Shown here: positions 25,816 to 61,421 of the stretch, one piece after another
Position numbering within the stretch: the stretch's first letter is position 1
Layout of the letters: each line of letters opens with the position of its first letter
Assembly (NCBI GenBank): GCA_002869145.1
Contig: PKTM01000011.1
Location: forward strand, 124,001-188,000
DNA length: 64,000 nt
Source of the DNA: Denitrovibrio sp.
GTDB lineage: Bacteria; Chrysiogenota; Deferribacteres; Deferribacterales; Geovibrionaceae
Direction: 5' to 3'
Position numbers and translations under genes: made by a program
The notes under the pieces: model-generated
Told to the model about the DNA's origin: nothing
The model's input: the letters and a program-made list of their open reading frames with translations, nothing else
Databases searched by the model: none

Positions 25816-28095
25816 CTAAACAATGTCTTCCAGATTTACCTTTTCAAAGATATTTAGTCTGCTGCCTTTTGTAGCGTTAAATATTTTGCGGCCATCAGCC
25901 TCAAAAACTGATTTTGATATATTAAATGCTTTCTCGCACCCCTGCATATCTATCGGGAAAAATCCCTGCGGAAATTGATTACCGGAAAAATGCATTGGCT
26001 GAGATTCTGTTTCGATAATATTTTGAATACCCGCTTTATTGATGGATTCCGGTTGACCGTAGTTGTGATCCGCCCCTAGCAAATACACCTTCTTAAACCC
26101 CATATGAAAAGCAAGCTGAAGACACACAAAAAGCACTGTACCGCCCAGAGAGATCGCTTTTTCCGGATTCTTTGAAAAGAAAAATGGAGGCAGCATTTTC
26201 TGTCCGGCAATATCTTTGTATTCAGGAGGGAGTGAATTAATCCAGCTAGTAGGGACATGCGAGCTGAGTTCATTTTTGAAGCGATCTAAGATAAACCTCC
26301 GTTCACATTTTACATTTTTTATCTGCTCAGTGTGATGGTGCCAGAAAAAGTTTGATATGGTAGTGTAATAGGTGATGTTTAACCCTTCTTTATAAAAAAC
26401 ACCGTTAACGCCAAAAACAGGGCATTTTTTGAGCATTGAGGTGTCGACATCTTTCAGACTTGGCCCAGTCCCCACCACAAAACACGATTCGCCCTTATGC
26501 ATGTCTTTGCTGTTCTGGAGCCAGCGGTCTTTTTTGCCGCCTGATGACAGTATGCTGAAACCGTATTTCTTCGGCTTTTCACTATCTATTATTTCTGAGT
26601 ACTGAAAATATGAGTAATACTCCATCCTCTTCTTTTTGTAATCAAGCTCAAAATATTTTTTTGCTTTCTCAATATTTCCATCTTCAAGAGCTGCTCTTGC
26701 ACAGGATGAAAAAACATCTTTAAAACGTTCTGCTGCTTCGTAGAGTTGGTTTACTTTTTCAGAGATAATGTTCGAATCAACAAATCTGCTTGCAGAGGCA
26801 TAATATAGCGCAAGATTATGGATGCTTTCATCTTCAGCACTTAGCTGCTTTATTTCAGGCGGTTCTATGTTTTTTATATCAGGATGCGGCAAAAGCTCAC
26901 TGTAAGCAGGCGGATAAAATATCGAATCTTTGTCCATACAGTCTTTTAGCAGTTCAAATGCTTTGTTAATTCTGCCGAACTTAGCAAGCGATCTTATATA
27001 TGCAGACATATGCTCCGCAGATATTTTATCAAGGCTGAAATCCATTTCATAAAGCCTGAAAGCTTCTTCTATATTCATCTTTTCAAACTGGACAGATGCT
27101 GCTGAGCTGTAAAAATCGGAGATATCAGGAAAAGCGGAATAAAGCAACTCCCCTATTTCTGTAAGGCTGTCTGCTCTGTCGCTTTCAACCAGAAATGACG
27201 CAAGTTGGGATGCGCCGTAAGATGTCATCCTGCCAAGTTCAATGTCACGTTTATAAAGGCTGAAAATATCTTCAGATGGTGTTGTAATAGAAAGATTGGC
27301 CGCTATCAGCGAAAAACCATCTTTGGTTTCTGGGCATATGGAGTAGGTATATTCAACCATTTTTACTGAATTTTCAGCATCGTTGAGCATTGCATATGCT
27401 TTTGCCAGCAACATGCTGGACGTAGGCGAGATTCTTCCATCAGGCAAATCTTTTGATGACAATTCTATGAAAGACCTGAAATCTTTCTTTTTTAAGTATA
27501 GAATGTTAGCGATTCTGGAGTAGACGTCTTTAGTTTGATTACATATCGAGCAAGTATAATCCGCCATTTTTACTGAATTTTCCGCATCATCGAGCAATGC
27601 ATATGCTTTTGCCAGCATCATGCTATAAGTAGGTGAGATCCTTCCACTAGGAAGATCTTTTGATGACATCTCTATGAAAGACCTGAAATCTTTCTTTTCG
27701 AAATATAGAATGCTTGCGATGCTGGAGTAGATGTCTTTAGTTTGATTACATATCGAGCAAGTATAATCCGCCATTTTTACTGCATTTTCCGCATCATCGA
27801 GCAATGCATATGCTTTTGCCAGCATCATACTGAACTTAGGGGAGATATCGCCATGCAACAAATCTTTTGATGACATATCTATGAAAGATCTGTGGTTCTT
27901 GTTTTCTGAGTATAGAATGCTCGCGATTCTGGAGTAGGCGTCTTTGATTACAAACCCTGAAGCATCGCAATGTGCAATCAGTGCCAAAGCTTTGTCTGTA
28001 TCAGAAAGCTCCAGTGCCAGGTTAAAGTATGATTGGACAGCTCTGTCTTGAATAACACCACGGCTTAAATCAATATCATAAAGTGATGCCGCCAT
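25816..28095 (-). CDS. DUF115 / MAF-like protein with N-terminal tandem repeats (3' part of an interrupted gene)
   Basis: A 759-residue product. The N-terminal 450 residues are TPR-like helical repeats, including three almost identical 69-residue units. The C-terminal third is a DUF115 domain: CFVVGTGPSLKDVDTSM, TISNFFWHHHTEQI, KKVYLLGADHNYG, and the shared ending FNATKGSRLNIFEKVNL. Likely a flagellin or surface-protein glycosyltransferase, by analogy with Maf proteins. The ATG at 28095 has no ribosome site. The frame is open for 18 codons further up to the TAA that ends the 28150-28722 gene, and those codons (TADIFREENELEM) continue the repeat pattern. So this and the next gene were probably one. 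Confidence 0.75.
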   Translation of the reverse strand: MAASLYDIDLSRGVIQDRAVQSYFNLALELSDTDKALALIAHCDASGFVIKDAYSRIASILYSENKNHRSFIDMSSKDLLHGDISPKFSMMLAKAYALLDDAENAVKMADYTCSICNQTKDIYSSIASILYFEKKDFRSFIEMSSKDLPSGRISPTYSMMLAKAYALLDDAENSVKMADYTCSICNQTKDVYSRIANILYLKKKDFRSFIELSSKDLPDGRISPTSSMLLAKAYAMLNDAENSVKMVEYTYSICPETKDGFSLIAANLSITTPSEDIFSLYKRDIELGRMTSYGASQLASFLVESDRADSLTEIGELLYSAFPDISDFYSSAASVQFEKMNIEEAFRLYEMDFSLDKISAEHMSAYIRSLAKFGRINKAFELLKDCMDKDSIFYPPAYSELLPHPDIKNIEPPEIKQLSAEDESIHNLALYYASASRFVDSNIISEKVNQLYEAAERFKDVFSSCARAALEDGNIEKAKKYFELDYKKKRMEYYSYFQYSEIIDSEKPKKYGFSILSSGGKKDRWLQNSKDMHKGESCFVVGTGPSLKDVDTSMLKKCPVFGVNGVFYKEGLNITYYTTISNFFWHHHTEQIKNVKCERRFILDRFKNELSSHVPTSWINSLPPEYKDIAGQKMLPPFFFSKNPEKAISLGGTVLFVCLQLAFHMGFKKVYLLGADHNYGQPESINKAGIQNIIETESQPMHFSGNQFPQGFFPIDMQGCEKAFNISKSVFEADGRKIFNATKGSRLNIFEKVNLEDIV
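27319..27939 (-). repeat. Three tandem 207-bp coding repeats
   Basis: Three units of exactly 207 bases (69 codons), 27939-27733, 27732-27526 and 27525-27319, each containing RIASILY-, RSFI-MSSKDL, SMMLAKAYALL and SICNQTKD-like segments. Units one and two are the most similar. Such near-identity suggests recent duplication and possible length variation. Confidence 0.85.
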
Positions 28096-28149
28096 TTCAA
28101 GTTCATTCTCTTCACGAAAAATGTCAGCAGTGCCGGAAAATTCTAAATT

Positions 28150-28722
28150 TTATTTTTCTGATACGATTTTGTTTATTTCGTCTATTGCCGTCTGCCTTTC
28201 GCCTGTGCTCAGCAGAATCTTTACTATATGTTTGAGATAAAAAGAAGTGAAACGTCTCTGAAAAAGATCTTTCAGTGCGAACCTGCTCGCAGTTTCCGGA
28301 TAGCCTCTGGAAAACAGAACCATAGCAGATGCCGTATAACCGTTAACGGCACCTGGATGTCTGCCGTATACTTTTTGAATAAGCTCTTCTGCCTGATTGT
28401 GTTTGTTGTTTATTGTGAGGCATTCGGCGTATTTCATGCTGTGAGACCATGCCTGATTATAATATGAGTAATCCTTCTGGAAAGCCTGCTCTGCCATGTC
28501 TGTAAATCCATGCTTCATCAAAAGCAGGGCATAACGGGAATATATAAATTTTGCATCTGGGTTGTTTGCAAAGACATCGTCTATTATGTCTGCAATACAG
28601 TCCGCAGATATACTGTGTTTGTCCAATATATCCTGAAGATTGTCAATCCAGTTACCGCCCTTACCGCTTTTATCCAGCAGCACAACCTCAAACTTTTTAT
28701 ATAGTGCCGATTGTTGAGTCAA
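28150..28722 (-). CDS. TPR-like protein, probably the 5' part of the following DUF115 gene
   Basis: A 190-residue helical, TPR-like protein (YAECLTINNKHNQAEELI, KILLSTGERQTAIDEINKI) with no catalytic motif. It ends at a TAA (28150-28152) that is in frame with the downstream DUF115 coding region, 18 codons before that gene's first ATG. If the stop were a sense codon, one continuous repeat protein of about 968 residues would result. It may be an independent helper protein, a truncation product or the front half of a pseudogene. Confidence 0.6.
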   Translation of the reverse strand: MTQQSALYKKFEVVLLDKSGKGGNWIDNLQDILDKHSISADCIADIIDDVFANNPDAKFIYSRYALLLMKHGFTDMAEQAFQKDYSYYNQAWSHSMKYAECLTINNKHNQAEELIQKVYGRHPGAVNGYTASAMVLFSRGYPETASRFALKDLFQRRFTSFYLKHIVKILLSTGERQTAIDEINKIVSEK

Positions 28723-40047: not shown

Positions 40048-41118
40048 CTACTTTTTGTTAGTCTTGATTATTTCATCGACAATCTTATCAATATCGAAAT
40101 GCATAGTGTCGAAGAGCTCTTTCGGATCATTCCTCTTACCCATGATCTTCTCTGTTTTTTCAATGAGTTCATCAACGGTATCAGTTTTTTCCATAAGATT
40201 TGCATCGATAAGCAGCTTATCATAGTGGGAAACAAATGATCTGGTGGATATAGCCGGTGTACCAAAGAAACACGCCTCGGAGTTCAGCGTTCCACCGCCG
40301 CCAATGAAAAGATCAGCAAATGCCAGCAGGTGCTGAATGATCATCTTCTCCTCAAGCACAGTAGCATAAGGGAACATAGCCTTCAGTGGTTCATGTTCGT
40401 ATCTGGGTATTATGATAATATTCGGATCAAATTTATTTTTAATCAGCTTTAGACCGTCATATAGCATTGTGTACTTTTTATGAACGTAAGAGGCTTTGAA
40501 TTCTTCTTCCCTTACAACTATCGTTTTCTTTTTCGGATCAAGATCGTTAGATTTTAAGAAATCATCAAAAAACTTTCTATCCGGCTCAAAATCATGCAGC
40601 CACGCCACAACATCTAGAAACTGATAGCTGTATATCTGATCAGGTTCCATAGAAAACCTTTCGAAAATAGTCTGCGGAACCATATATGGTCTGAACGCTT
40701 TTGTAGAAAGAGGCAGGGTCAGCCTAGCCTGCGGGAGTGCTTTTTTAAAGTTTGCGGTATGGTCAGAAAGAGGTATGTCGTAAAAATTTATAATATGTAT
40801 ACCCAGCCCAAAGGCTACTCTGTTTGCATCTACACTGCAAAGGCAGACCAGTTTTGTAATGTTATGTTTTTCAATATATTCCATCAGAGCGAGCTGTCTG
40901 TGTATAGAAGCTTTCAGTTTATCGCCAAGGTTTGCACCGCCAAAAAAACCACGGTTCACAAACTCTATCTTATAAAGATTCAGCAGATCCACAACTTCCC
41001 GATAGCCGTCACCTTCACGGGCAGTCACAAGAACGTCATTACCGCGAGCCTTTATATTCATTATAAAAGGGCGGAAAAACATAACAGATTTTGGTGTTAC
41101 CAAATCAAACCAGATCAA
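40048..41118 (-). CDS. DUF354 family GT-B-like protein
   Basis: A 356-residue protein of the DUF354 family, which resembles GT-B glycosyltransferases. MIWFDLVTPKSVMFFRPFI is the family start, and the C-terminal half has DLFIGGGGTLNSEACFFGTP, like the donor-binding site of GT-B enzymes. The family's reaction is not established to my knowledge. It overlaps the upstream radical SAM gene by 4 bp (ATGA), so the two are translated together. Confidence 0.75.
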   Translation of the reverse strand: MIWFDLVTPKSVMFFRPFIMNIKARGNDVLVTAREGDGYREVVDLLNLYKIEFVNRGFFGGANLGDKLKASIHRQLALMEYIEKHNITKLVCLCSVDANRVAFGLGIHIINFYDIPLSDHTANFKKALPQARLTLPLSTKAFRPYMVPQTIFERFSMEPDQIYSYQFLDVVAWLHDFEPDRKFFDDFLKSNDLDPKKKTIVVREEEFKASYVHKKYTMLYDGLKLIKNKFDPNIIIIPRYEHEPLKAMFPYATVLEEKMIIQHLLAFADLFIGGGGTLNSEACFFGTPAISTRSFVSHYDKLLIDANLMEKTDTVDELIEKTEKIMGKRNDPKELFDTMHFDIDKIVDEIIKTNKK

Positions 41119-42221
41119 ATTATTCCCTTCTCTTTATATTCGTTATACCACCAGGGGCGTATTGGTATAACATCAATATCACTAAATATATAACCATACT
41201 TACCCTGATATTGTATCATACCCACCGCAGGAATGTGCGGGTTAATAAGATTCATCTTATTCGCACATGTGTAGAGGCATTCTGGGTGGCACACTTTATT
41301 TTCTATCATATCAAGCACATTCAGTGCCTTTTTACTCTCCAGTGCATTGTCAAAACTGCCTGATTCACGGATATTGCCCATATGAAGACTGTCCAGCCAG
41401 AGCAGGCATGGATAAAGATTTCCGTAAGGGTCTATGTCTATGTTTCTCCTTCCCATAAAACAGTCGAAGTCTATCTTTTCTCCATCATAAACAGCCTTTT
41501 GCAGCAGATATTTACTGCGGTAACGACCTTTGTCATAGCCGATTGCCACAAGCTGTTCGTCTATCCGTTTCAGCTCTTCATCAGTCCATATAAAGCTCTC
41601 ACGGCTCAGTTCTTTATTTTCCAGATTTTCTTTTGCGTTTCTGTATCTCTGCGGATTATACCTTCCATAGCCGAGATATAGCCCTACCCCAAGCTTTTTA
41701 GCAAAATTGTAAACCCACTCAATAAGATGATGGTTCTCTTTGTAAATAGTAAACTGCAGTCTGAGAACAACACCTTTGAGCTTCTGAAGCTCCTCTATGG
41801 TCTTCATGGAAAGCTTGAAACCGTCCTTGCGGAGGCGTATCTTTCCATTGGTTTCCTCGTCGCCGTCCAGAGATATATCCACACGATAGATAGGGCACTT
41901 TTCAAGTACATATTTGGCAACTTCTATGTGCCGTTCGGGAAACCAGCCTGTAACAGGGGAATCGATCACCACCCCCTCGTGGTACTTGTAGAGAGAATCC
42001 ACAACGTCAAAGTATGTGTCGCTCATATGAGGCTCGCCGCCAGTGAGGTGCACCTTCTTTAGATCGAGATGTTTTGACGAGAAAACAGAATCAAGCTCTG
42101 CTGGCGTAAGCTCTTCTGGTCTCCTGTCCGGAAGCTTCCATATGCTGCAGTAGCGGCATGGCCCCGGGCAGTACTCTGTAATAGTGTATGAAATATCTTC
42201 TAACTGATAAGGTAACTGCAT
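41115..42221 (-). CDS. Radical SAM protein with SPASM-like C-terminus
   Basis: A 368-residue radical SAM enzyme. The cluster motif is EYCPGPCRYCSIW (CxxxCxxC), followed by the Gly-Glu motif HLTGGEPHM. The C-terminal region CFMGRRNIDIDPYGNLYPC and CHPECLYTC has the Cys spacing of an auxiliary-cluster (SPASM or twitch) domain, as in enzymes that modify peptides or sugars. It is coupled to the DUF354 gene. Substrate unknown; a sugar or surface-protein modification is inferred from location. Confidence 0.82.
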   Translation of the reverse strand: MQLPYQLEDISYTITEYCPGPCRYCSIWKLPDRRPEELTPAELDSVFSSKHLDLKKVHLTGGEPHMSDTYFDVVDSLYKYHEGVVIDSPVTGWFPERHIEVAKYVLEKCPIYRVDISLDGDEETNGKIRLRKDGFKLSMKTIEELQKLKGVVLRLQFTIYKENHHLIEWVYNFAKKLGVGLYLGYGRYNPQRYRNAKENLENKELSRESFIWTDEELKRIDEQLVAIGYDKGRYRSKYLLQKAVYDGEKIDFDCFMGRRNIDIDPYGNLYPCLLWLDSLHMGNIRESGSFDNALESKKALNVLDMIENKVCHPECLYTCANKMNLINPHIPAVGMIQYQGKYGYIFSDIDVIPIRPWWYNEYKEKGII

Positions 42222-42315
42222 AATTCCACCAATTTGTTAATCGTTATTATTATTTATTCGTTGATACTCTTAAATATTATCATAGCAGTGTATTCTAAAT
42301 CTTTACCGCTTGCTA

Positions 42316-43305
42316 CTATTTTTGCTCCAGATAGTTTTCAAGGAATGTCCCTACGATAAAGTTTGCACCCTTTTCGCTGACATGCCGCAGGTCGTTCTCC
42401 CATATAAGCTCACGAGAAGACATCGTAGCAAGCTCATAGCTTGGAAAATAGCTTACGTTATCGTATTTTTCCACAAATGTGTGAGCCGCAGTCAAAAGGA
42501 CTGATTTTGAGAGAAGGTTTGCAGTTATTATGTCGTTATTTGTAAATGTCCTGAGCAGAGGCACCGGCGAAACTGTTACCAGCATGTTGAAATCTTTTTT
42601 GCCGTGAGTGCATAATATCTGATATATCTCCTCCAGATTTTGAAGGTTTTCGTTGTAGTCTATCAGCCTCAGGCAAAACCGGTCTTTGTTTTTCATTATC
42701 ATTTTAACAGGAGGCATAGAGTTCAGATAAATCCCTAGTTCTTTGTCGTACCATGCTTCTATCAGCCCCAGTGTTACCGTCACTACATCTGAATCTATTA
42801 TATACCTAGTAAGCCGGAGTAGCTCTTTTCTCCGGTTAAGAACCTCTTCAAAACTAGTAATCTTCACAGCAACCGACTGCGGGTCAAACCAGCTATCTTC
42901 CGTCTCACGATAGAGATGCTTTTCAGGAATCATCTCCTCAAGCCCCAGCGCCCATTTTATTTCATACAGCATGCTGTAGGAATTGTATTTGTTCAGATAT
43001 CTGAAAGTGTCAAATATTTCCTTGTTTTCCTTTGCACTTTTAAAAGCTGGAACATTCATCCCTTGTCTGAACATTGCCAGTTCTATCCGTCTGGCAAAAC
43101 ATGAGCCTATGGTAAATATTGTGTTCTGTTTGCTTATTTTAAAAGCAGGACTTATGTGCAGCGACAGTTCTTCTTTTCTCAGCCTGTTGCTTGCAAGGTT
43201 TTCTACGGAGCTTATTTTTTCAGGTTCGCCTTTATGAAAATTACAATTGGGGTTTGTCTTTGATGTCCCCATAGCTTCTGTAAAACTTATTTCCTTGATC
43301 GACAT
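42316..43305 (-). CDS. GSCFA domain protein
   Basis: A 329-residue protein with TIFTIGSCFARRIELAM, the GSCFA signature, and a C-terminal segment NDLRHVSEKGANFIVGTF that looks like the Asp-x-x-His end of SGNH-type hydrolases. The family is often found in polysaccharide clusters and may act as an acyl esterase or transferase, but the reaction is unproven. It is 94 bases upstream of the radical SAM gene on the same strand. Confidence 0.82.
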   Translation of the reverse strand: MSIKEISFTEAMGTSKTNPNCNFHKGEPEKISSVENLASNRLRKEELSLHISPAFKISKQNTIFTIGSCFARRIELAMFRQGMNVPAFKSAKENKEIFDTFRYLNKYNSYSMLYEIKWALGLEEMIPEKHLYRETEDSWFDPQSVAVKITSFEEVLNRRKELLRLTRYIIDSDVVTVTLGLIEAWYDKELGIYLNSMPPVKMIMKNKDRFCLRLIDYNENLQNLEEIYQILCTHGKKDFNMLVTVSPVPLLRTFTNNDIITANLLSKSVLLTAAHTFVEKYDNVSYFPSYELATMSSRELIWENDLRHVSEKGANFIVGTFLENYLEQK

Positions 43306-43460
43306 ATCCCACCCTTGAGTTATATTTTATTTAGTACATATCGTCTGGTTTATCTCTTTATTAAGTCATAAACCGTCATATAGTAAGTTCATAAACATTC
43401 AGCTTCTCCAGCAAGACGGTTTGAAAAAGACAGGTAGACCCTAGTGAATCAATAATGAAG

Positions 43461-44465
43461 TTAATGCAGGATGTCAAAGTCTACTAGCGGGAATACATCC
43501 AGTTTTGTTTTTCTGCTGGCGTTATAAATTTTGAAAGAGTCTGAAACCACATTATTCTGAACATAATCGTAAAATTCATACTGAGCATCAAGGTTTGGAT
43601 GTGTCCATATTTCACCTTTCTCTCTGTAGTTCTCGGAAAAGTGATTGTTGTTATTGTCGTGTTCATAATATTTAATGTTGTTGAATATGGTTCCTTTCTC
43701 ATCCGGACTGAAAGTGAAGCTGAAATCCACACCCAAAAGATATATTTCGCTGAAGCCCATATAGTAAGCCATCTGTATCTGTGAACAGACTATGGAATAA
43801 CCGAGCACCATTCCGTGAGTAATATCTCTGCTGAAATTCTTATTGTCACTGTCGTGTTTAAACTCGTATATGGAAGCCTCTGAGCCGTCAAGATATTTAA
43901 GAGTCTCTTTCTCCAGAAATTTCGGTATAGAAATTTCGTTCAGTATATCGCTATTCTGCTTTGACACTAAAAGGTCCTCAACACAAAGGTAGGTAGGTCT
44001 CCATATTGTGCTTTCGAATGCCAGATAAATTTTATTTGAAGCAAAACAGAGCTCACCTGCTATCTTGTCCAGATCATCCATTTGAAGGCTGGGTCCGTTT
44101 CCTATTATGAAACAGCGCTCGCCCTTATGTTTGTTCTTATAAGAAACAAGTCTCTGCATATTCTTTTTCTGGTCGTAGGCAAACCAGTAATCTTTCAAAG
44201 ATTTTTCATCTATGATTATTGCAGGTATTGATATGCCTGCTCTTTTTTCTATGTTGCCTTTCTGCCATTTGCCAAGCATCAGAGCATCCAGTCCAAACTG
44301 ATATTCGAGAAATTTCTCCCAGCTGACAATGTCTATATCACAAAACGAACCTTCTCTTTGATCATCCACAAAGCAGACTACTTCAACATCATTTGCCCTG
44401 CAGAAGCTCATGGCAAACTCTGCTGATTTACCAGTTCCGAAAATTGCTGCTTTGCTTATTTTCAT
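43461..44465 (-). CDS. DUF115 / MptE-like protein with N-terminal Rossmann-like module
   Basis: A 334-residue protein. Residues 1-60 form a small Rossmann-like module (KAAIFGTGKSAEFAMSF ... CFVDDQREG). The DUF115 core begins near 115 with RCFIIGNGPSLQMDDLD and continues LCFASNKIYLAFESTIWRP and IYLLGVDFSFTF, ending NASRKTKLDVFPLV as in the 23694 paralogue. The close similarity of the two cores suggests duplication. A Maf-like glycan-transfer role is inferred. Ten bases separate it from the upstream radical SAM gene. Confidence 0.8.
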   Translation of the reverse strand: MKISKAAIFGTGKSAEFAMSFCRANDVEVVCFVDDQREGSFCDIDIVSWEKFLEYQFGLDALMLGKWQKGNIEKRAGISIPAIIIDEKSLKDYWFAYDQKKNMQRLVSYKNKHKGERCFIIGNGPSLQMDDLDKIAGELCFASNKIYLAFESTIWRPTYLCVEDLLVSKQNSDILNEISIPKFLEKETLKYLDGSEASIYEFKHDSDNKNFSRDITHGMVLGYSIVCSQIQMAYYMGFSEIYLLGVDFSFTFSPDEKGTIFNNIKYYEHDNNNNHFSENYREKGEIWTHPNLDAQYEFYDYVQNNVVSDSFKIYNASRKTKLDVFPLVDFDILH

Positions 44466-44475
44466 TTATAACCTT

Positions 44476-45774
44476 TCAGTCTTTAATAACTATTTTTTTC
44501 TGTTTTGATATGTAGTGTTTTGGGTCATCCACTGGTTTGGCAAATTTTATAGGCTTCGCCTCTTCTGTTCCGAATGTCTGTGCATAGTCGCTGTGGAAAC
44601 CATCGCATATGCTTTTAACGCTGCACTCAGCACACTGCTCTCCGTAAACATAGCCGCAGTGTTTTTCGGCCCGAAGCCTAGCGTTCTGGCGATAGATTAC
44701 CTCTTTAGGAAGTCCGGAGCTGAAAAGCCTGATTAGGTGCTCTTTGATATCAATCTCTCTCATATAATGTTCTTTGGTTCCATGTTCGGAGGCTTTACCG
44801 AAATCTACACCATTATAGCTTGGCACATCGTAAAGCAGTATGGGAATTGTTTCGTCAATTTCGTCACTGCTGGAGCGCTGATTAAACCTTGTAGTCCATG
44901 TCCATGAGTTATAGTCCCACTCGTGCTGATCGTAGGGGAGCTGCTGAAAATCGTATATGTTTTTTCTGTGCTTAGAAGCCAGCATACAAAGAGGAAGATA
45001 TCTTACATTCACCTCTATCCCCGCAGTTTCCAGTAAGTCGATATATTTTGATAAAGCACTTTTGATAGTGGCATACCTTGGGACATTCTCCCGGCTTACC
45101 CCTTGCTGGTCTGCGAAAGGGTTAAATGAGATAAAATTAACAACTCTGGCTCCTGTTTCGATGGCCATCTGTGAAAGCTCCGGTATCTGTGCCAAAGCCT
45201 GCTCTGTCAAAGTACAGTTCAAGCGGAACGGGATTCCCAGTTTCTGTATGTTATAGAGTCCTTTCAGCTGTAGCTCACTGCCGCCTTTTAGTCCGACTAT
45301 GTTGTCAAACACTTCGCCCAAAGCGTGTGTACTGACCAGAAAGTCAGAAATCCCCGCTTCTTTATATCTGCGGCACTTTTTTTCATCTGACAGAACTATT
45401 GCATTTGTTATAAGAGTTGGTCGAAGACCTATTGAGTTGCAGTATTAGATCAGCTCATATATTGGAGGATATATAGTTGGCTCGCCCCCCTGAATGTCTA
45501 CATATTCGTTACCGTAGACAGTTTTTAGTTTGAAACAGATCTCCTTTGCCTTATCCAGTGACATGAATTTATGCTCAGGGTGGTCTTTATCATTGATTTT
45601 GTTTGTAAAATAACAGAAGAAACAGCGGAGGTTGCACGTCTGCCCCAGCCAAAGAACACCTCGTTTGTTAAGCGTGCGTTCCTTTGTGAACTCTCTTTCT
45701 GTATCCTGCTTTTGCTTACAAGTGTAAAAATTTCTAGCCCAGTCCAGTATTTCAGATTTTATATTTGTTTTCAT
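44476..45774 (-). pseudogene. Radical SAM/SPASM-like gene interrupted by one in-frame TAA
   Basis: The 5' part (45774-45448) encodes QTCNLRCFFCYF (CxxxCxxC) and DIQGGEPTIYPPIYELI, then TAA at 45445-45447. The same frame continues without shift as YCNSIGLRPTLITNA and DFLVSTHALGEVFDN, the usual next strands of a radical SAM barrel, to a Cys-rich C terminus (CGYVYGEQCAECSVKSIC). Without the stop the protein would be 431 residues plus one. The 3' part may be annotated as starting at TTG 45321. Either a real nonsense mutation, a sequencing error or a read-through site. The fragment without the 3' half cannot form the full barrel. Confidence 0.8.
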
Positions 45775-45983
45775 AACCTTACCAATATTTTATAATATGT
45801 CTGACATAACAGCATCATTTTATGTGTGAGCCATAAGATATCATTACATATATACTAAATTCGACATTATTATGTTATTATTTAATAAATAATAACTCTA
45901 TAAGCAATGTTTGTCATTCAGCTATGCTTCATTTATCCGATTATTTCAGACATAGTATCATATACGGAGACTAAGGGTAAGAT

Positions 45984-46910
45984 ATGAACAAAAACGAGAT
46001 CCTAATTTCTGTAATTCTTAATAATTATAACTACTCCAGATATATAGCTGAGGCGATAACCTCTGTGCTTGAGCAGAGTTATGCTAATTTTGAGCTGATT
46101 ATTGTTGATGACGGCTCTACTGATAACTCAAAGGAAATTATAGAGCAATTTGCCAAAAAAGATTCTCGGATAAAACTCTGCTTTAAAGAAAATGGCGGGC
46201 AGGCAAGCGCCTTTAATGCCGGATATGAAGCCGCAAAAGGCGATATTATATGCTTTCTGGACAGTGATGACTATTTTGCACCAGAGAAGCTCGCAGAAAT
46301 AAAAAAAATGCACACATAAGGCTACCACTACATCTATTCCGATCATCAGGGCGTAAATTCTGACAACATGAAAATATCTGATCCTTTAAAACGATACAAA
46401 TATAACGGGTTCAATACTTTTCTGGTTTATTACCTGTCTAAGTATCCGGGGGATGTCACTTCATCTCTTTCAATAACAAAAGAGCTGGCAGAAAAAATAT
46501 TCCCCTTACAAAACACTGAGAACTGGCGCATTCAGGCGGATGACTGCATTGTCTTTCAGGCTGGCATGCTGACACGCGCTTTTTTTCTAGACAAGAAGCT
46601 TATCTTTTACCGTATACATGAAAACAACGGTTACTACGGCAAAAAATTAAGCTCTGATTATGTCTATGACCTGCTTATAAAAAGAAATGCACTCAAAAAA
46701 CTGGCTCTGGGAAAAATGGAAATTTCGGATGCCTTCTTTAACAACACATACAACCTAATAGCAGAGTTTAAAACACATAAGCAAGTTGACACAAACCTTT
46801 TTAAGCTATACATGCATGTCTTGTGGATTGAGATGAACACAGGTCTGCTGAACAAGCTGAAAACTTCATATAAAGTTTATAAACTGTTTCAGAAAAGGAG
46901 AGCCCGGTGA
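45984..46910 (+). pseudogene. GT2 glycosyltransferase gene interrupted by one in-frame TAA
   Basis: The first 111 codons encode a GT-A start (ISVILNNYNYSRYI, LIIVDDGSTDNS, CFLDSDDYF) very like the GT2 protein at 24425. TAA at 46317-46319 follows KKMHT, then the frame goes straight on with GYHYIYSDHQGVNSDNM and a further 180 codons ending KLFQKRRAR. There is no frameshift. The C-terminal part contains ADDCIVFQAG, where GT2 enzymes carry the catalytic Asp, so truncation should kill activity. Its stop overlaps the next start (GTGA), showing the gene was once a coupled unit. Confidence 0.8.
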
Positions 46911-48004
46911 GAGAGAAAGCTTTAAATTCCATACAGAATCACACTCAGGAGAAACTGAGCATAGGAAATGCAAAACTGCCTCTGGTTTCTATAATCATCA
47001 CTAGCTACAACTACGAAAACTATATAAAAGAGTGCATAGAATCCTGCCTCAGCCAAAACTACCCTTTGTGCGAAGTTATTGTTGCAGATGATTGTTCCAC
47101 CGATGACACTTCGTCCGTTCTGGAGCATTTTGGTGACAAGATAAAGGTTGTCCGTAATAAAAAGAATATGGGGCAGCTGGCAACATTTTTTACCGGTCTG
47201 AATAATGCATCAGGAGACTTTACAGTTTTTGTAGACGCTGACGATTTTCTTGACAATGATGCCATCTCCGCTCACCTGTATCTGCATCTTTTTCAGAAAC
47301 CTCCGGTAGCTTTCACCTGCCTTAGAAACAGACAGGTATCTGCAAGTTCTGCACTTTTGAACAACTTTCATATGGATCTGCTTACTAATACTAAAAAGAT
47401 AGCTTATGTCCCTCCACGTGTCATACACACCCCTACATGGAGTTGGAGCACCACCAGTGCAATGATGTTTCGTACGGATCTTTTAAGACTTATAGAGACA
47501 GAAAAGACCGAAGATTTCAGAATATGCGCTGATTATTATGTAGTACATTTTGCAAACCTGCTCGGCGGAAGCCTTCTTTACGACGAGGCAAAGGTGAACT
47601 ACAGGCGTCACGGAAAGAACTCTTTTTCAAAAAACTTCATCATCGGCGGGCACAGACCAACAGGGAGCTCCTCACATCATGCACATCCGCCACATGACAT
47701 GCTGCAAAAAGAGATAATAAGTCAGCTTCTCTCCAGAAGGTGCGAATTTGAGCCTTATTTCCCAACAATTGCCAGATTTATCGAAACTGTGCTTTATGTA
47801 GCGGATAAAGATTTTATAACCAACCACTTTTCATTAAACGAAAAAGATATAACAATGCTATCAGAGGCAGAATCTGCTGTGGCAAAGCTTAAAAAAGAGC
47901 AAATAGAATCAAAGAAGAAAGCGCTGGAATTTTTTGAAGATGAAAGACTCAATGATAATGTCAGAAGCATCATAGAAAACCTTAAGCAGCTGTATATAAA
48001 ATAA
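46907..48004 (+). CDS. GT2 glycosyltransferase
   Basis: A 365-residue family 2 glycosyltransferase: VSIIITSYNYENYIKE, EVIVADDCSTDDTSS, and VFVDADDFLD (metal-binding DxD-like). A His-rich segment GSSSHHAHPPHD lies around residues 258-269. It starts with GTG, preceded by AAGGAG, sharing GTGA with the interrupted GT2 gene before it. Likely extends a surface glycan; donor unknown. Confidence 0.86.
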   Translation: MREKALNSIQNHTQEKLSIGNAKLPLVSIIITSYNYENYIKECIESCLSQNYPLCEVIVADDCSTDDTSSVLEHFGDKIKVVRNKKNMGQLATFFTGLNNASGDFTVFVDADDFLDNDAISAHLYLHLFQKPPVAFTCLRNRQVSASSALLNNFHMDLLTNTKKIAYVPPRVIHTPTWSWSTTSAMMFRTDLLRLIETEKTEDFRICADYYVVHFANLLGGSLLYDEAKVNYRRHGKNSFSKNFIIGGHRPTGSSSHHAHPPHDMLQKEIISQLLSRRCEFEPYFPTIARFIETVLYVADKDFITNHFSLNEKDITMLSEAESAVAKLKKEQIESKKKALEFFEDERLNDNVRSIIENLKQLYIK

Positions 48005-59984: not shown

Positions 59985-61421
59985 CTATCCTCGCTTAGGC
60001 AAAATAAGTGAAAAAACTGCGCCTCTATCTGCTTCGCCCACTACAATATCCCCACCGTGGGCTGTCATTATCTTTTTACATAAAGGAAGCCCCAGACCTG
60101 TTCCGGTCTTTTTAAGAGTATAAAACGGTTCGAAGATTTTTTCACGCTTATCTGAAGGAATTCCACCTCCGGTATCTGAAACAGATATAGTAACGTGACG
60201 GTCACCCTGTGAGGCATCTATTTTCATGTCGCCCCCTTCTGTCATCTCCTGAATACTGTTAGACACCAGATTTATGATGACCTGTTTCAGCTTATCCCTG
60301 TCCGCATGAACTGTGAGCTGTTCGTCTATGTCAAGCTGCAGTTTGACCATGCCGAAGCTGAGGCACCCCGCACTCATCTCCATGATCTCCTCTACTAGCT
60401 TTCTTAGTTTAAAATCTTTAAGATCAATTTCTATCTTTCTGGAATAGATAAGAATATCACCGACAATCCTCTCCAGCCTGTGCACTTCGGATTGAACTAT
60501 CTTTATATAGTTTTTTGTCTGAGGATTTACAGCGGTCTGTTCCATCCGTTTGGCAAAGCCTCCTATGGCCACCAGCGGATTTTTGAGCTCGTGAGCAACA
60601 GTGGCTGAAAGTCTGCCCATTCTAACCAGATTTTCTGAGTTCATTGCGGTCTTCCTCAGACTTGCAAGGTCTGCCGTTGTCAGCTCAAGCTGCTTGACGG
60701 TTCTGGAAAACTCTATGGAGAGTGAGCAGATATTTCCGTATAGAAGAAGAGCTTCGCTGTCGGATTTGGTATAGTTATCCTTGCATGCCATCAAAATCCC
60801 AATTGGTCTATCTCCAACCCCAAGTCCCGTGACCAGAATATCATCACAGAAATAGTCCGCCATCTTTTTCAGCCCTTCGATGCTCCCTTTTTTCACTATA
60901 TCTGTTCTGTCATAGAACATAATATCCGAAAGCTGGTTTTTTGTTTCAAATGTCAGCTTTGTCTTCTTGAAAGCACCTGCATCAACCCTGCCTGTACTGT
61001 CAGCAAATATAACACCCCGTAGCTCAAGAAGAGCCTCGTTCAGAAACATTACCCCTGCACAGTAGAAACCGCCACGCCCCACAAGCATACCCATAAGCTG
61101 GTGAAGAACCTAGTCTATGGTGCTCCTGTTCGTAATGGTATCCAGTATCTCTGCACCGCAGAATATTCTGCTGGAGCTGCCTAGGTAAAGGTTGAATATC
61201 TTCTTTAGGTGCTCAATATCTTTTTTCTCAGGGGTGAGTTTTTTGTCCAGAAAAAGCTGTGCTCTGAAATCTTCTCCCAGTATTTCTAATGATTCAACGC
61301 TACTGTCCTGTCTTCCCATCTCAGACACAACCTTATCCTCATGCAAAAAGCGCATGCCGACAAGCTCACAACCGAGAGTCTCCTCTATCAGCTGATAAAG
61401 GTCTTGGGAAACAGAACTCAT
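59985..61421 (-). pseudogene. GAF-type sensor histidine kinase gene interrupted by one in-frame TAG
   Basis: The 5' part (61421-61113, 103 codons, start supported by GGAG) ends at TAG 61110-61112 after TNRSTID. The same frame goes on as VLHQLMGMLVGRGG, a GAF-like segment, a HisKA H-box SATVAHELKNPLVAIGG, N box INLVSNSIQEM, G1 DTGGGIPSD and G2 GTGLGLPL. The full-length product would be 478 residues and cytoplasmic. The 3' part alone (ATG 61094, 369 residues) keeps the kinase core and might work by itself, but has no ribosome site at its ATG. It is paired with the receiver gene. Confidence 0.75.

Follow-up and report, generated by a model that had tools for sequence, protein, structure and literature searches.

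An in-frame stop codon in a Denitrovibrio glycosyltransferase gene probably reflects sequence error or DNA damage in a draft genome

The in-frame TAA at positions 46317–46319 (+ strand) of a GT2 glycosyltransferase gene is very probably one of many base changes, predominantly G:C to T:A and never exposed to selection, that error or damage introduced throughout this Denitrovibrio draft genome, and the living population most likely has a sense codon here. The gene lies in the 64,000-nucleotide stretch analyzed here (the window), part of a 464-kb contig. The sequence comparisons show the stop itself, the intact relatives of the gene, the excess of stops along the contig, the G:C-to-T:A class of the changes, and the interruption of groEL and gyrB. 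The living organism would most likely make an intact GT2 protein, the codon at 46317–46319 probably encoding Glu, and the change would have arisen by sequencing or assembly error, or by oxidative (8-oxoguanine-like) damage in the DNA that was sequenced. We infer that the reads or the source DNA, rather than the living lineage, hold the change; an oxidative origin is a guess based on the substitution class.

The interrupted GT2 gene and its neighborhood

The gene (45984..46910, + strand) reads from an ATG at 45984 to a TGA at 46908–46910 with the TAA in frame, and encodes 308 residues when read through. Its match to PF00535 (E 6.6e-35; 120.9 bits against a curated cut-off of 23.3) spans residues 9–136, with the stop at residue 112 inside, making it the only one of nine GT2 domain matches in the genome to have a stop within the match. 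Among 20 relatives searched, the downstream half of the gene has matches in three genomes, all from the same family and with the frame unbroken. The proteins of these three relatives (55, 55, and 48% identical to the window protein) align collinearly through the stop with no nearby indel. None has the stop, the corresponding codon being GAA in two and AGC in the third.

The sequence-only reading of this DNA had described a TAA within an otherwise intact gene, and the collinear relatives confirm this as a single nonsense substitution. The possibility that homologues naturally end here, which would have spoken against that description, was checked, and the homologues found run past the stop position. 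It was also correct that the gene is coupled to the next GT2 gene (46907..48004, + strand), an uninterrupted ORF whose GTG start at 46907 shares a GTGA motif with the TGA of the interrupted gene. A run of eight A residues lies just upstream of the TAA; frameshifting or slippage at this run was ruled out as the origin of the stop because the alignment is collinear. A scan of genome contigs with the GT2 alignment returned 56 loci, of which one (L007) is labeled Deferribacterales and none is labeled as this genus, although records of the window itself or of very close sequences may have been omitted.

Three further genes in the window are interrupted. The divergent radical SAM neighbor (45774..44476, − strand) bears the same kind of lesion, as the sequence-only reading had noted, namely a TAA at 45445–45447 (− strand) with the domain match extending across it and AAA in its one close relative; the two stops are 870 bp apart rather than the 0.5 kb given earlier. 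The third case is a TPR-like gene (25816..28722, − strand) with a TAA at 28150–28152 (− strand), in which, judged by eye, read-through keeps the repeat pattern and the 3′ end resembles MptE-like sequences. The fourth is a histidine kinase gene (59985..61421, − strand) with HisKA and HATPase_c matches and a TAG at 61110–61112 (− strand), where both same-genus genomes compared below have Glu.

The two GT2 genes belong to a cluster at 40048–48004 that also contains DUF354, radical SAM/SPASM, GSCFA, MptE-like, and radical SAM genes. By eye, GT2 relatives at two other loci (L004 and L005) are flanked upstream by an MptE-like gene and downstream by either a radical SAM gene or a second GT2 gene.

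In-frame stops along the contig

Curation by eye left 26 in-frame stops on the 464-kb contig (C10), 24 with homology support and two (35866 and 152150) with reading continuity as their only support. They were gathered from a coding-potential scan (39 candidates), alignments to two same-genus genomes (25 and 26 stops), and profile matches across stops. Candidates judged by eye to be gene boundaries (a start codon following closely), ORFs in an antisense frame, or extended N termini were dropped, and 99920 (+) and other weak candidates were excluded. All three codons are represented (12 TAA, 6 TAG, and 8 TGA). The coding-potential scan of another contig (C26, 193 kb) yielded eight uncurated candidates, some of them intragenic by eye, for example in a Lon-like sequence.

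A stop in one intact gene alone exceeds chance. The pair of adjacent nonsense codons, which had been presented as special, is nevertheless ordinary at the contig rate: the window holds four stops against 3.6 expected per 64 kb under a uniform spread (P for at least four, 0.49), and with 26 stops in 464 kb the probability that some pair falls within 872 bp by chance is 0.71.

Among the interrupted genes are groEL and gyrB, both of which cells need. The single groEL match in this genome carries a TAA and is intact in all 20 relatives searched, and the single gyrB match (named by NCBIfam) carries a TAG and is intact in 11 of 11. Also interrupted are dnaJ, mutS, uvrA, nuoC, a Fur-family gene, glnE, thiD, fliM, and rdgB; the stops in cheA and glnE align with Val/Ile and Leu, respectively.

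Six ordered genome pairs gave one to three frameshift candidates each, and no excess of indels or frameshifts, such as long-read errors would give, was found among them. Substitution errors without an indel excess are unusual in a 464-kb contig, which counts against an error. At 336371–338913 of the same contig, an 848-aa ORF of the finished genome of the genus aligns to both other members with an identical 2-nt frame step at residue 283; this ORF may be a pair of overlapping genes, or the finished genome may contain a frameshift there.

Stops and missense changes by substitution class

We compared this genome (G000) with two others of the genus, G001 and G002, over 141 genes and 43,264 columns with conserved surroundings, writing C>A for G:C to T:A. 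G001 is the finished genome of the genus and is taken as the type strain of D. acetiphilus, for which the portion of the genome report drawn on here gives 3,222,077 bases and a stated error below 1 in 100,000 (PMC3035293). Its zero stops in this comparison arise by construction because G001 supplied the ORFs.

The private stops that can be polarized number nine in G000 (8.5 C>A) and eight in G002 (7 C>A). The synonymous spectrum of G001 gives P 0.005 for at least eight C>A stops out of nine. The GT2 stop fits this class, with GAA in two relatives, and the radical SAM stop, set against AAA in its one relative, falls outside it. Radical C>A missense changes amount to 44 in G000, 14 in G001, and 32 in G002, a threefold rise in G000 (Fisher p 0.0002 against G001).

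Without selection, C>A changes are expected to divide into stop, radical, mild, and synonymous changes in proportions of 0.091, 0.271, 0.476, and 0.162. The 8.5 stops thus predict ~25 radical C>A changes, and the observed excess over G001 is ~30; therefore nonsense changes are not depleted. The ratio of stops to radical changes in this class matches the absence of selection, and the stops lack the depletion that living cells would show. From these values we infer a load of ~1.9 changes per thousand G:C pairs, or some 2,300 in the genome. Mild C>A missense shows a larger excess (377.5 versus 258.8, or ~119) than the ~44 that the error model predicts, and G000 also has more radical C>T changes (22.5) than G001 (11.5) or G002 (9), so that part of the bias points to a real tendency of the lineage. 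The lineage thus probably has a real bias as well. Within the invariant columns of GroEL, private missense changes number zero in G000 and one each in G001 and G002, which is neutral for the question.

Control genomes

Queries taken from ORFs outside the genus favor none of its members. Those from G006 recovered six stops in 57 genes of G000, none in 48 genes of G001, and two in 47 genes of G002. Queries from G008 and G004 gave the identical six stops in G000, none in G001 (46 and 43 genes), and three and two in G002. The zero for G001 in this outside-query test involved no judgement by eye; by the other procedures G001 gave 15 candidates in 400 kb and eight and five alignment stops, all judged by eye to be boundaries or spurious ORFs.

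G002 shows the C>A load too (G002:C11, L186–L201), with stops in dnaE, dnaK, and mutS (two) and three in a gene that we take to be ppk, although its stop list (20 and 30) is less curated than that of G000. That G002 shares the load counts against error unless G000 and G002 share a protocol, and the error reading holds best if they do.

In another genus, neither G004 nor G008 has a C>A stop in 112 genes, G006 having supplied the ORFs and so having a zero of its own by construction. Radical C>A changes number 28 in G004 against 9 and 10 in the other two; because G004 shows this without any C>A stop, an excess of radical changes is not specific by itself. G004 does have two stops, neither of them C>A, spaced four codons from each other close to the start of a single gene. 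Mutual comparisons of G004, G006, and G008 gave 2 to 11 uncurated stops each, and do not serve as a clean control because apparently spurious ORFs contribute to them, by eye ORFs in antisense frames and upstream extensions that close relatives have in common.

Alternative explanations

The sequence-only reading tied the stop to a surface glycan being switched on and off through a nonsense codon that can revert. In its favor, phase variation frequently targets glycosyltransferase genes, and the A8 run sits just upstream of the TAA. The collinear alignment, however, makes the lesion a substitution and excludes slippage, and frame toggling at a repeat tract was not found at the stop in the alignment with the three relatives. 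To our knowledge no mechanism toggles a point nonsense codon. The proposed tie is not supported by the contig-wide view, in which stops of all three codons occur in non-surface genes such as groEL, gyrB, mutS, uvrA, dnaJ, nuoC, and the Fur-family gene, accompanied by missense changes of the same class. Because the scattered changes also strike genes that cells need, a genetic switch has virtually no chance of being correct. It is exceedingly unlikely, too, that a suppressor tRNA or an altered genetic code allows readthrough of the stops. In favor of this, the downstream halves are collinear and conserved, and the parts considered here of a study on bacterial in-frame stops propose readthrough for them (PMC7918605). 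Against it, all three stop codons are involved with no single one consistently used, none of the 38 tRNA matches in the genome has a UUA, CUA, or UCA anticodon, and recoding does not predict the excess of same-class missense changes. Among the tRNA genes, L141 (G000:C16:71392-71477) is a tRNA-Leu with anticodon AAG, which is unusual in bacteria. Real decay restricted to the glycan cluster, or a null allele there, with the pathway lost and neighbors decaying jointly, would account for two adjacent interrupted genes and is very unlikely: the window rate equals the contig rate, stops were found at an equal rate in unrelated housekeeping genes, and the cluster's other genes (the second GT2, MptE-like, GSCFA, DUF354, and further radical SAM genes) have unbroken ORFs.

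Real recent mutations, nonsense and missense, are unlikely to explain the stop; they would have accumulated faster than selection removed them in a lineage with a G:C-to-T:A bias that is a mutator or under oxidative stress. In their favor, the same class of change occurs in two species of the genus, the mild C>A excess goes beyond the error model, and both loaded genomes (G000 and G002) have interrupted mutS and uvrA genes. Models for MutY and for Fpg/MutM find no match over the curated cut-off in any of 12 genomes from the family and order, the controls being over the cut-off in 7 and 8 of 14 genomes; the MutY model has weaker, sub-cut-off matches in all 12. A loss of MutY/MutM restricted to the loaded genomes was not found among these 12, and the absence of these proteins was rejected as the specific cause of the load, G001 being equally without a match over the cut-off and yet free of stops. 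Real mutation is further opposed by the interruption of the single-match genes groEL and gyrB, by the stops in dnaE and dnaK of G002, and by the lack of depletion of nonsense relative to radical missense. There is a slim chance that two Denitrovibrio species without a MutY/MutM match over cut-off truly carry an unpurged G:C-to-T:A load, nonsense alleles of groEL and gyrB included, and tolerate it by way of multiple chromosome copies, a mixture of alleles, or readthrough.

Error or damage in the draft better fits what was found: interruptions in the single-match groEL and gyrB genes, an unselected ratio of stops to radical changes, and absence of the load from the finished G001. In-frame interruptions in a deposited genome recall those of Mycobacterium smegmatis, where, in the sections of the report used here, 28 of 73 interrupted coding sequences were shown by resequencing to be errors (PMC1852416). 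No miscalls were observed among those 28, because of the program used, whereas the changes here are base substitutions, mostly of one class and without an indel excess. The G:C-to-T:A class resembles the G>T artefacts that oxidative damage (8-oxoguanine) produces in sequencing libraries, although the excerpted account concerns mismatches and variant calls in human exomes (PMC12390751) and the present changes sit in an assembled consensus. The proposed readthrough cases likewise involve single in-frame stops in genes otherwise conserved, but that set, as described in the same portion of the study, was limited to stops retained in orthologues of at least two species as a guard against artefacts (PMC7918605), and the GT2 stop is present in none of its three relatives.

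Implications

Comparing stops with radical missense changes by substitution class offers a simple test of load when reads are absent. Apparent pseudogenes and radical substitutions in G000 and G002 should not be taken as biology before the reads are checked. For the organism itself, the account of a glycan switch operated by a stop codon is removed.
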